From the NCBI RefSeq assembly GCF_006716235.1, contig NZ_VFOR01000005.1, positions 1 to 64,000 on the forward strand: 64,000 nt of DNA. The letters are read 5' to 3'. The translations under genes were made by a program, and so were the position numbers. The DNA is from Propioniferax innocua. GTDB lineage: Bacteria > Actinomycetota > Actinomycetes > Propionibacteriales > Propionibacteriaceae. This document shows positions 46,893-55,765 of this stretch, in pieces; positions within the stretch are counted from its first letter, which is position 1, and every line of letters starts with the position of its first letter. Under the pieces are notes generated by a model, which ran no database searches, had not been told where the DNA came from, and worked only from the letters and a program-made list of their open reading frames with translations.

Positions 46893-46968
46893 TGGTAGCC
46901 CCGACGGGATTCGAACCCGCGCTACCGCCTTGAGAGGGCGGCGTGCTAGGCCGCTACACAACGGGGCC
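46893..46968 (-). tRNA. tRNA-Glu (CTC)
   Basis: The minus strand folds into a full cloverleaf: acceptor GGCCCCG with CGGGGCT, T-loop GGTTCGAATCC, and anticodon stem CCGCC/GGCGG with loop CTCTCAA, anticodon CTC. The discriminator is A and CCA follows in the DNA (46893-46895). Confidence 0.95.
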
Positions 46969-47016
46969 GCGGCTGGAAAAGATTAGCAGCAGCGAGCCAC
47001 GTCGTCCATTCCATCG

Positions 47017-47088
47017 CTGGGCTATAAGGACTCGAACCTTAACTAACTGAACCAGAATCAGTCGTGCTGCCAATTACACCATAGCCCA
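47017..47088 (-). tRNA. tRNA-Gln (CTG)
   Basis: The minus strand gives acceptor TGGGCTA with TAGCCCA, T-loop GGTTCGAGTCC, and anticodon stem ACTGA/TCAGT with loop TTCTGGT, anticodon CTG. The discriminator is G and no CCA is encoded. It lies 48 bp upstream of tRNA-Glu, so the two are probably one transcript. Confidence 0.95.
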
Positions 47089-53308: not shown

Positions 53309-54310
53309 ATGGTTCCCGTGATCGATCACGTGGCCGTTCTCGGCGCTGGAGGCTGGGGCACGGCGTTCGCGCTTCTCCTCGCCGACGCCGGGCGCAACGT
53401 GACCCTGTGGGCACGAGACCCCCGGGTGGCCGACGCGATCAACACCGAGCGCCGCAATGAGCGGCGCCTTCCCGGAATCGAACTCCCGGTGCAGGTGCGG
53501 GCGACATCGGACCGTTCGGCGGCCGTGGCTGACGCCGACGCCGTGGTGATCGCGTTGCCGTCGCAGACCGTCCGGGCCAACATGACGGGCTGGGCGCTGC
53601 CGAGGGGCGTCCCCGTGGTGAGCTTGGCCAAAGGCCTCGAGGAGGGCACCGGCCTGCGGATGAGCCGGGTTCTGGCCGAGTGCGGTGTCGCGCCAGATCA
53701 GATCGCGGTGCTGAGCGGGCCGAACCTGGCAGATGAGATCGGCCGCCGTGAGCCGGCGTCGGCAGTGGTCGCGGCCGCCGAGCATGATCTGGCGGTGGAC
53801 ATCCAGCGCGCGTGCCATGGTCCGAATTTCCGCGCCTACACCAGTACCGATGTCACCGGGGTCGAGGTGGGCGGCGTCACGAAGAATTCCATCGCCATCG
53901 CTGTCGGCATGGCCATCGGGCTGGGGCTGGGTGCCAATGCGGTCGCAGCTCTCACCACGCGCGGGCTCGCCGAGAGCACACGGCTCGGGGAGGCGATGGG
54001 CGCTGACCCGCTCACGTTCCAGGGAATGGCAGGTATGGGTGACCTGGTGGCAACCTGTTTCTCGCCGCTTTCGCGGAACCGAAGCTTCGGCGTGGAGCTG
54101 GGGCGTGGAGTGGCGGTGGAGGCCGCGCTCGCACACGGGCGGGGCGTCGTGGAGGGGGCCCGGTCCACTCCTGTGGTGGCCCAAGTGGCAGGTGGTATCG
54201 GTGTCGACATGCCGGTGGTCTCGACCGTCTGTGATGTTCTGGCGGGGCTGCTCACTCCCGCAGAGGCGCTCGACCGTGCCATGGCGCGAGAGCTGAAACC
54301 CGAGCGCTGA
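53309..54310 (+). CDS. gpsA: Glycerol-3-phosphate dehydrogenase [NAD(P)+]
   Basis: GpsA reduces dihydroxyacetone phosphate to sn-glycerol-3-phosphate for phospholipid synthesis. The 333-residue protein has the nucleotide site VAVLGAGGWGTAFALLLADAG, ALPSQTVRANM, SLAKGLEEGTGLRMS, SGPNLADEIGRREPASAVVAA, the catalytic lysine in GVEVGGVTKNSIAIAVGMA and RGLAESTRLGEAMGADPLTFQGMAGMGDLVATC. The canonical Gly-Gly-Ala-Leu-Lys-Asn reads GGVTKN, which keeps the lysine and asparagine. It is downstream of plsC; nhaA follows on its own promoter. Confidence 0.95.
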   Translation: MVPVIDHVAVLGAGGWGTAFALLLADAGRNVTLWARDPRVADAINTERRNERRLPGIELPVQVRATSDRSAAVADADAVVIALPSQTVRANMTGWALPRGVPVVSLAKGLEEGTGLRMSRVLAECGVAPDQIAVLSGPNLADEIGRREPASAVVAAAEHDLAVDIQRACHGPNFRAYTSTDVTGVEVGGVTKNSIAIAVGMAIGLGLGANAVAALTTRGLAESTRLGEAMGADPLTFQGMAGMGDLVATCFSPLSRNRSFGVELGRGVAVEAALAHGRGVVEGARSTPVVAQVAGGIGVDMPVVSTVCDVLAGLLTPAEALDRAMARELKPER

Positions 54311-54460
54311 CCGGAGCGGAGGTGCCTCGGGCCGCGACTCTCACCGCGCTGTGTGGGGAGAACGGGCCAGGTGGGCGCGATCGGTGACAGGCGTGATCTG
54401 ACCAAGCGATTGTTGCAGACCCGCCTGTGTCAAGGCTGCAGGAGGGGCAATGGTTCCTGC

Positions 54461-54466
54461 TAGGCT
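54461..54466 (+). promoter_or_regulatory. -10 element of the nhaA promoter
   Basis: TAGGCT at 54461-54466 would start transcription near 54473, exactly where the structured leader begins. No clear -35 is seen. Confidence 0.45.
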
Positions 54467-54472
54467 CCCCGC

Positions 54473-54526
54473 ACTGGGTGAGCCGGGAAGTCTGGTCGGC
54501 GACGAATTTTGCCTACCCCGAGGAGA
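54473..54526 (+). ncRNA. Structured nhaA leader, candidate nhaA-I (lithium) riboswitch
   Basis: The leader folds so that GGGT (54476-54479) can pair with ACCC (54515-54518), directly next to the SD GAGGAG (54520-54525). Inside is a hairpin GCCGG/TCGGC (54482-54486 with 54496-54500) with a GAA-containing loop, followed by GACGAA. The order GGGTGA, hairpin, GACG, CCTACC(C)CGAGGAG next to nhaA resembles, from memory, the nhaA-I motif now assigned to lithium sensing. The class assignment needs a covariance search; the secondary structure and SD proximity are seen directly. Confidence 0.5.
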
Positions 54527-54532
54527 ATGCCC

Positions 54533-55765
54533 ATGCGCCACATGGCCGGGCGAATCACTGAGTCACTGCGAACCGAGACAGTCGGCGGGTTGCTGCTCGT
54601 CGGAGCCGCGATCCTGGCGTTGGTCTGGGCCAACTCGCCGTGGCAAGACACTTATCACCAGATCCGCGAGACCAGTTTCGGCCCCGCCGCGCTGCATCTG
54701 GATCTGAGTGTCGCCCACTGGACGGCCGACGGGTTGTTGGCGATCTTCTTCTTCCTCGTCGGCATGGAGCTCAAACACGAGTTCGTGGCCGGTGACCTCC
54801 GCAGCCCCAAGAAGGCGCTTGTCCCGGTTGCTGCGGCGGCCGGCGGGGTCATCGTTCCCGCCCTGGTCTATCTGGCGTTCAATGCGGGCAAGGACACCGT
54901 GGGTGGGTGGGCCATTCCTGCCGCCACCGACATCGCCTTCGCATTGGCGGTGCTCGCGATCATCTCATCGCATCTCCCGTCTGCCCTGCGCGTCTTCCTC
55001 CTGACGTTGGCCGTGGTCGATGACCTCATGGCGATCCTCATCATCGCCGTGGTCTACACCAGCGAGATCCGTATCCTGCCGCTCCTGCTGGCTCTGATCC
55101 CCATCGGCCTCTACTGGGTTCTGGTTCACCGCTGCTCGAAATGGTTCGCGGCCCGCACGTGGAGCCTGTGGCTCATCCTGCTGCCGATCGGCATCGTCAC
55201 CTGGGCACTTGTCCATGCCTCCGGGGTCCATGCGACGCTCGCCGGCGTGGCTCTTGGCATGTGCATTCCGGTGATCGCACACTCGGCGAACACCGCTGGC
55301 GATGAGGAGCACGAGACGTCCCTCGAGCATGCTCTTGAACACACCCTGCGGCCCGTTTCCGCCGGACTGGTCGTGCCCCTGTTCGCTTTGGGTGCTGCCG
55401 GTGTCACGGTGGAGGGGTCGGAGTTCCTCGGCTCACTGTCGAGCCCGGTCGTTCTCGGCATCGCCTTGGGTCTCCTGCTCGGAAAGCCGGTCGGGATCAT
55501 GCTGACCACCGTCATCGTCTCCAGGCTCACCCCCGACGAGTCGGATGACTCCATGTACTGGCTCGATCTCGTCGGGATCGGCATGCTCGGCGGCATCGGT
55601 TTCACCGTGTCGCTGTTGGTGAGTGAACTCAGCTTCGCCGGGACGGATCATCTCGACAACGCCAAGATTGGTGTGCTCACCGGCACGCTTCTCTCGGCCC
55701 TGTGCGCCACCGTGGTGCTGGCACTGCGCAACCGGCATTACAAGCGAATGGAGGCGAGTCGGTGA
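54533..55765 (+). CDS. nhaA: Na+/H+ antiporter NhaA
   Basis: NhaA exports sodium or lithium in exchange for protons. The 410-residue membrane protein has about 12 helices and family motifs ANSPWQDTYH, IFFFLVGMELKHEFVAGDL, PAATDIAFALAVLAI, FLLTLAVVDDLMAILIIA with the two ion-binding aspartates, VHASGVHATLAGVALGM, HTLRPVSAGLVVPLFALGAAGV and LGGIGFTVSLLVSELSF. ATG 54533 is 7 bp from GAGGAG; ATG 54527 is only 1 bp away. It interrupts the gpsA-ddl order seen in mycobacteria and carries its own promoter and structured leader. Confidence 0.93.
   Translation: MRHMAGRITESLRTETVGGLLLVGAAILALVWANSPWQDTYHQIRETSFGPAALHLDLSVAHWTADGLLAIFFFLVGMELKHEFVAGDLRSPKKALVPVAAAAGGVIVPALVYLAFNAGKDTVGGWAIPAATDIAFALAVLAIISSHLPSALRVFLLTLAVVDDLMAILIIAVVYTSEIRILPLLLALIPIGLYWVLVHRCSKWFAARTWSLWLILLPIGIVTWALVHASGVHATLAGVALGMCIPVIAHSANTAGDEEHETSLEHALEHTLRPVSAGLVVPLFALGAAGVTVEGSEFLGSLSSPVVLGIALGLLLGKPVGIMLTTVIVSRLTPDESDDSMYWLDLVGIGMLGGIGFTVSLLVSELSFAGTDHLDNAKIGVLTGTLLSALCATVVLALRNRHYKRMEASR

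Follow-up and report, generated by a model that had tools for sequence, protein, structure and literature searches.

The question raised by the leader of nhaA in Propioniferax innocua was whether it carries an ion-sensing regulatory RNA and, if so, of which family. The gene lies in a 64,000-nt stretch of DNA, analysed here as a whole (the window), and a first-pass annotation had proposed that its leader is a riboswitch of the nhaA-I/Li-I type or a divergent actinobacterial variant. The identity of the gene was confirmed by an equivalog match (TIGR00773, 324.7 bits against a cut-off of 254). Of two in-frame start codons, ATG 54533 was preferred over ATG 54527 because of its spacing to the Shine-Dalgarno (SD) sequence (7 nt after GAGGAG). 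The sequence features that had been pointed out were found as described: the -10-like TAGGCT, the GGGTGA that would open the RNA (54476–54481), CCTACCCCGAGGAG (54512–54525) and a possible 5-bp hairpin, GCCGG-GAAGU-CUGGU (54482–54496), two pairs of which are G-U. The leader did not fold better than shuffled sequences (z 0.20; 108 of 200 shuffles folded at least as well), and scans for sigma-70 promoters and for terminators found neither at the leader. Since the fold was no more stable than that of shuffled sequences, the observation had to be judged by comparison with other leaders.

Known ion riboswitch families and the leader

All 4227 models of Rfam 15, among them RF03057 (nhaA-I), RF03038 (nhaA-II) and RF03071 (Sodium), were run against positions 54300–54700 and 54440–54545 with E values up to 10. 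Only weak, unrelated matches were obtained (hammerhead II, CRISPR-DR10 and ES003), and the proposed membership in nhaA-I/Li-I or nhaA-II was therefore not borne out. At gathering scores, the entire window contained two tRNAs and nothing else. Nine loci from other genomes that bear the element described below had no Rfam ion riboswitch at E values up to 1.

The nhaA-I model had no match in the genome of P. innocua at E ≤ 0.001, while a Caulobacter positive control was matched above the cut-off. When the consensus was compared by eye, the conserved GCAGGU linker and GGUCGGGCCGCC loop of nhaA-I were absent from the leader. The leader does lie upstream of nhaA, a placement that is not specific to this family. 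Two relatives (L001 and L002) gave nhaA-I matches below the cut-off (E 9.9e-5 and 4.2e-4); these were taken as chance, since the nhaA genes of the two genomes are located far away and the similarity was mainly to CAGGUU and GGUCGGGCCGCC. The nhaA-II model recovered its positive control in a Brevundimonas MAG (locus L270, 81.5 bits) and did not match the leader at E values up to 10; in place of the three-hairpin layout of nhaA-II, the leader offers space and sequence for a single conserved hairpin. The Na+-I model (RF03071) produced two sub-threshold matches in the P. innocua genome (E 2.0 and 3.9), both of them away from the leader. Having no covariance-model match, the leader was rejected as a member of nhaA-I, nhaA-II or Na+-I.

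A conserved element in actinobacterial leaders

A blastn search of 116 related genomes with the leader located a conserved core a short way upstream of nhaA in dozens of genomes, as well as at other sites. The core is part of a 25-nt element (Table 1) with the consensus GG(U/A)G-N-G-Y-Y-G-GGAAGYCUGGU-C-R-R-C-R. Columns were numbered as u before the core, c within the 13-nt core (GGGAAGYCTGGTC) and d after it. In the window, the core occurred once, with 0.02 occurrences expected. The GACGAA to which attention had been drawn (54501–54506) is present in the letters, but it corresponds to columns d4–d9, which were not conserved.

Table 1. Features of the nhaA leader in the window
Feature	Position	Strand	Evidence or remark
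-10-like box TAGGCT	54461..54466	+	would start RNA near 54473 (predicted)
Conserved element GGUGAGCCGGGAAGUCUGGUCGGCG	54477..54501	+	conservation; single significant match of model R1 in own genome
Closing position u-4, opposite 54501 (d4)	54481	+	A-G in window copy; U-G or C-A in most members
Stem P 5' strand GCCG, pairs with 54497–54500	54482..54485	+	covariation u-2/d2, u-1/d1
Competing hairpin H1, GCCGG (54482–54486)/CUGGU (54492–54496)	54482..54496	+	
Conserved loop GGAAGUCUGGU, proposed binding core	54486..54496	+	sequence conservation
Proposed hairpin H2, GGUCGGC (54494–54500)/GCCUACC (54511–54517)	54494..54517	+	6 of 7 pairs; complement enrichment
Stem P 3' strand CGGC	54497..54500	+	covariation
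Shine-Dalgarno GAGGAG	54520..54525	+	letters
nhaA, Na+/H+ antiporter	54533..55765	+	TIGR00773

Thirty NhaA loci, including that of the window (L003), were picked by protein similarity alone, and 27 of them carried the element upstream of nhaA. This number comprises 26 loci that passed the filter given below with NhaA downstream, plus L006, in which GGUU replaces GGUG; in L008, L012 and L017, only chance-level sites with 6 mismatches were seen. The 12 fixed letters of the core were kept in all 27 elements, a conservation that does not follow from how the loci were selected, whereas in most other sets the GG and the core letters were fixed by the search pattern. A covariance model of the element (R1, built from 48 sequences including the window copy) had one significant match in the 2.79-Mb P. 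innocua genome, at the leader (E 1.2e-6; next match 0.56).

A pattern scan of GTDB genomes yielded at least 117 stretches, and the 80 titled ones among the matches listed included Streptomyces, Arthrobacter, Amycolatopsis, Nocardia, Mycolicibacterium, Micromonospora and Frankia. Among the matches listed, 14 titled ones were outside Actinobacteria; 12 of these failed the stem or GG filter, and those that passed were L129, a contig labelled as a Chloroflexi MAG, and L146, a Polaromonas site of doubtful status. The latter is probably a chance site, although it is still counted in the set of 129 used below. In L129, the element preceded an APC-like gene resembling that of L196, a Streptomyces record, and it may represent either transfer or a mis-binned contig. 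In a phylum sample, 67 of 296 genomes contained the complete pattern and none of the 296 contained the reversed pattern. A search of 198 family genomes for YT/AR-type stem variants found only two, both already known.

Comparative counts are given for three sets. From 239 exact-core sites (one more was skipped at a locus edge), 214 members were retained after 25 sites without GG or three stem pairs had been dropped; L006 was among the latter and is probably a real element. A later collection, with repeated sequences removed, held 244 elements. Alignment A1 contained 48 of 49 elements, L146 being left out, and its counts are not frequencies because the elements were picked to differ from one another. 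A conserved regulatory RNA element almost certainly exists, and the broader idea of the annotation, a regulatory RNA tied to ion transport in the nhaA leader, held up in the form of a conserved, covarying element found in many actinobacteria.

The genes downstream were classified for 129 elements whose loci had been collected without regard to the gene (100 from the GTDB pattern scan, among the matches listed, and 29 from the phylum sample), by tblastn to representatives, most of which were annotated by Pfam or NCBIfam. Among these, cation-transport or related genes followed 102 elements. NhaA was the most common (77/129), followed by CPA1-type exchangers (12) and CBS-domain proteins (5), with single cases of an NhaD/ArsB-type transporter, a Na+/Ca2+ exchanger, TrkH and TrkA. 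Four genes initially left unclassified matched Pfam families: P-type cation ATPases (2), H+-pyrophosphatase (1) and the Mrp/complex I antiporter family (1). The CBS-domain proteins were counted as related since an NhaD/ArsB-type transporter follows the CBS gene in L054 and L055. The Pfam and NCBIfam matches do not by themselves identify the transported ion in most cases. The other 27 elements preceded genes not, or not known as, cation transport genes: alpha/beta hydrolases (5), APC-like proteins (3), DrrA-like ABC proteins (3), Rph-like proteins (3), His-rich membrane proteins (2), a methyltransferase, an acyltransferase, two genes too short to classify and seven unclassified genes. No Pfam or NCBIfam family matched the APC-like and His-rich representatives.

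Several loci had further features of their own. Divergent gene pairs with one outward-pointing copy of the element per gene were seen in L044, L045, L050, L059, L103, L106 and L144. In leaders of CBS-domain genes, an additional GC-rich hairpin separates the element from the SD (L044, L045, L050, L058 and L106). Genes resembling drug-modifying or drug-export proteins were found behind the element as GT28-type (L057, L103, L104 and L107), Rph-like (L166, L198 and L210), DrrA-like ABC (L109, L110, L147, L185 and L210) and alpha/beta hydrolase genes (L182, L190 and L234). The Rph-like, glycosyltransferase, ABC and hydrolase targets could reflect a signal linked to ionophores or antibiotics.

Pairing within and beyond the element

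The outer letters of the element form a short stem (stem P, GYYG/CRRC) around the conserved loop. The highest corrected mutual information among the 214 members was that of its closing position, u-4/d4, which was U-G in 107 and C-A in 58. Rarer combinations were A-A (12), U-A (10), A-G (7, the combination of the window copy), A-C (5), U-C (5), C-C (4), C-G (3), U-U (2) and G-A (1). U-G and protonated C-A wobbles have an identical shape (isosteric pairs). The inner pairs u-2/d2 and u-1/d1 also covaried, from C-G to U-A, with 10 and 3 double changes, respectively, in the 48 distinct elements of A1.

The covariation was examined on a FastTree phylogeny of 147 NhaA proteins (7 of 154 rows, being short, had been dropped beforehand), using the 122 rows with U or C at u-4 and G or A at d4. 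Position u-4 changed at least 27 times on this tree. In 21 independent comparisons, d4 followed in 19.3 (mean), changed in the opposite sense in 0 and did not differ in 1.7, with a median p of 3.8e-6 in the tree-aware test. The control column pairs u-6/d4 and u-4/c7 were not significant by median p on the same tree. Comparisons at u-2/d2 and u-1/d1 were concordant in 4 of 4 and 2 of 2 cases, too few for a test.

Minimum-energy folds contained stem P in 1 of 244 leaders; in 235 of the 244, the 3' strand paired downstream instead, and imposing stem P cost a median of 8.3 kcal/mol. Since stem P is disfavoured by energy, factors that the energy model does not cover would be needed for it: a bound ligand, a bound protein or non-canonical pairs in the loop. 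A competing hairpin, H1 (GCCGG/CUGGU), which is the 5-bp hairpin of the annotation, could form in all 48 distinct A1 elements, without compensatory changes among them. C-to-U changes in the stem give G-U pairs in H1, which could explain why C-to-U changes alone were seen. These patterns suggest that stem P and H1 are both maintained.

The element is placed at a fixed distance from a -10-like box. TANNNT started 13 nt before the first G of the element in 102 of 214 members and 14 nt before it in 30; the window copy has a rare spacing of 16 nt (3/214). Given this fixed spacing, transcription probably begins at the element or directly adjacent to it. Downstream, CGACC was present in 114 of 214 leaders, compared with 24.9 in mononucleotide shuffles. 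In the collection of 244, it was present in 138 leaders, beginning 13–15 nt after the core in 67 of them, and an SD-like motif followed within 25 nt in 105 of the 138. Perfect 7-nt complements of GGUCGGC occurred in 60 of 214 members (23.4 expected), whereas complements of GCCGGGA were rarer than expected (2 versus 12.2). In the window, the partially matching GCCUACC ends 2 nt before GAGGAG.

Covariation in this downstream pairing (H2) and in GGU/ACC was weak or absent, and the expression platform is thus a proposal drawn from complement enrichment and position. L249 retains CGACC despite an AGC stem. The annotation had also paired GGGU (54476–54479) with ACCC (54515–54518) beside the SD. This pairing is possible in the window, but comparison of leaders gave it weak support. 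Members with GGAG had ACC at d9–60 less often than those with GGUG (28/42 versus 160/188, p 0.008) and CGTCC at d13–22 more often (4/42 versus 3/188, p 0.02); these two were among 14 tests, uncorrected for kinship or test number, and the GGU/ACC pairing (P1) was judged weak on this comparison.

Proposed control of nhaA and competing readings

A riboswitch candidate is recognised by a conserved, covarying structure in the 5' leaders of a coherent gene set; such a structure was found here, with 27 of 129 targets outside the main set. The reading that we prefer, and hold to be about as likely as not, is that the nhaA leader opens with an uncatalogued class of actinobacterial cis-regulatory RNA, a putative Na+ (or Li+) riboswitch that activates translation of the antiporter. 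We infer ligand binding, the direction of control and translation as the controlled step, with Na+ the most likely ligand and Li+ a less likely one. A build-up of the ion in the cell would act through the riboswitch to raise the expression of the cation/proton antiporter. In the ligand-bound state, stem P would form at the start of the mRNA and enclose the conserved loop, with a U-G or C-A wobble as its closing pair, and the sequence ahead of the SD would be left free. Without ligand, the 5' strand of the element would fold into H1 and the 3' strand GGUCGGC would pair with the GACC-containing sequence adjoining the SD, hampering translation. The fuller version is tentative, and we hold it somewhat less firmly: an undescribed, actinobacteria-wide class of Na+-sensing riboswitch, with an aptamer of approximately 25 nt at the mRNA 5' end and a closing pair that swaps U-G for protonated C-A, in command of NhaA, CPA1, NhaD-type and Mrp-type transporters, H+-pyrophosphatase and P-type ATPases.

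A riboswitch of the same structure may instead respond to another ligand, be it pH, K+, c-di-AMP or some ionophore- or antibiotic-related signal, a possibility that we consider unlikely though worth keeping in view. The TrkH, TrkA and K+/H+-exchanger-like targets point this way, as do the Rph-like, Rgt-like glycosyltransferase and DrrA-like ABC targets, but the predominance of NhaA among the matches listed fits Na+/Li+ more directly. A C-A wobble at the closing position would need protonation, which also speaks for this rival; U-G and C-A interchange freely, however, so the protonated form is not required. About equally improbable is the other main rival, in which a regulatory protein, and not an ion, binds the leader. 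The shortness of the hairpin, its conserved loop, its location at the 5' end or close to it and a stem P not favoured by energy alone are compatible with this. Against it, an unsystematic look at neighbouring genes revealed no one gene that accompanies the element from locus to locus, and the enrichment of complements close to the SD hints at an alternative fold within the leader itself. The palindromic outer letters and the constant distance to the -10-like box would also be expected of a transcription-factor operator in the DNA that overlaps the start site. This explanation is very improbable, as u-4/d4 was T-G or C-A in 165 of 214 members and the palindromic T-A or C-G in 13, the conserved centre is asymmetric and most elements of the gene-independent set, among the matches listed, point at a recognised gene.

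Scarcely any weight falls on a leaderless upstream peptide (GUG-X-R-E-V/A-W-S-A). GUG occupied u-7 to u-5, near the likely RNA start, in 187 of 244 elements, but it was missing in 57, the frame was no more open than the others (stop within 30 codons in 41% versus 32% and 33%) and stem changes altered the residues yet preserved pairing. Just as remote is a much diverged or reduced nhaA-I or nhaA-II (Li+-I/II) riboswitch. The gene downstream is the same and, by eye, N-GCCGG, GAAGY and CUGGUC resemble GgCcGG...CGAAUCCgGuC of nhaA-II, so that H1 recalls that family (GCCGG...GAA...CYGGUC; L270:1501–1598 versus window 54481–54497), a likeness to be read as a lead only; against this, neither family model matched the leader, and R1 missed the nhaA-II RNA of L270 at E values up to 10.

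The putative Na+ riboswitch can be set beside the reported Li+ and Na+ riboswitches (described in 2022 in PMC9646797 and PMC9337991). There, nhaA-I/Li+-I (RF03057) is described as mostly preceding nhaA, with action speculated by its authors to be mostly via the ribosome binding site (PMC9646797). The element likewise has nhaA most often downstream, but nhaA-I has two hairpins with conserved GCAGGU and GGUCGGGCCGCC. Like the element, nhaA-II/Li+-II (RF03038) mostly precedes nhaA; it differs in its 84 positions and three hairpins, with no match in either direction. Na+-I (DUF1646 motif, RF03071 'Sodium') has broad cation-transport gene company and two extended stems, P1 and P2, and is described from Firmicutes, Proteobacteria, Acidobacteria and Verrucomicrobia (PMC9337991). 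The gene company of the element is nearer to that of Na+-I (PMC9337991) than to those of the nhaA-centred Li+ classes (PMC9646797), while the two extended stems of Na+-I (PMC9337991) set it apart.

A literature search, with preprints and most subscription papers outside its scope, found no description of the element. In genome-wide RNA discovery studies, the main text of PMC11109978, which covers S. avermitilis, had no match to 'nha' or 'antiporter', and that of PMC8632094 had 'antiporter' for potE only. With no match to a family in Rfam 15, the element appears uncatalogued, an ion-riboswitch-like leader with an architecture of its own as judged from sequence comparison, and it is missed by current annotation for the same reason. 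Further Na+-sensing gene control factors are expected to await discovery, according to PMC9337991. If the proposal is true, actinobacteria, Streptomyces included, would sense sodium directly and would do so with an ion aptamer of very small size; the short, position-locked element fronts most of the NhaA genes examined. Elsewhere in the window, at 46896–47088, the two tRNA genes lie on the minus strand, 48 nt apart and both scoring 60.4 bits, possibly as a duplicated pair.
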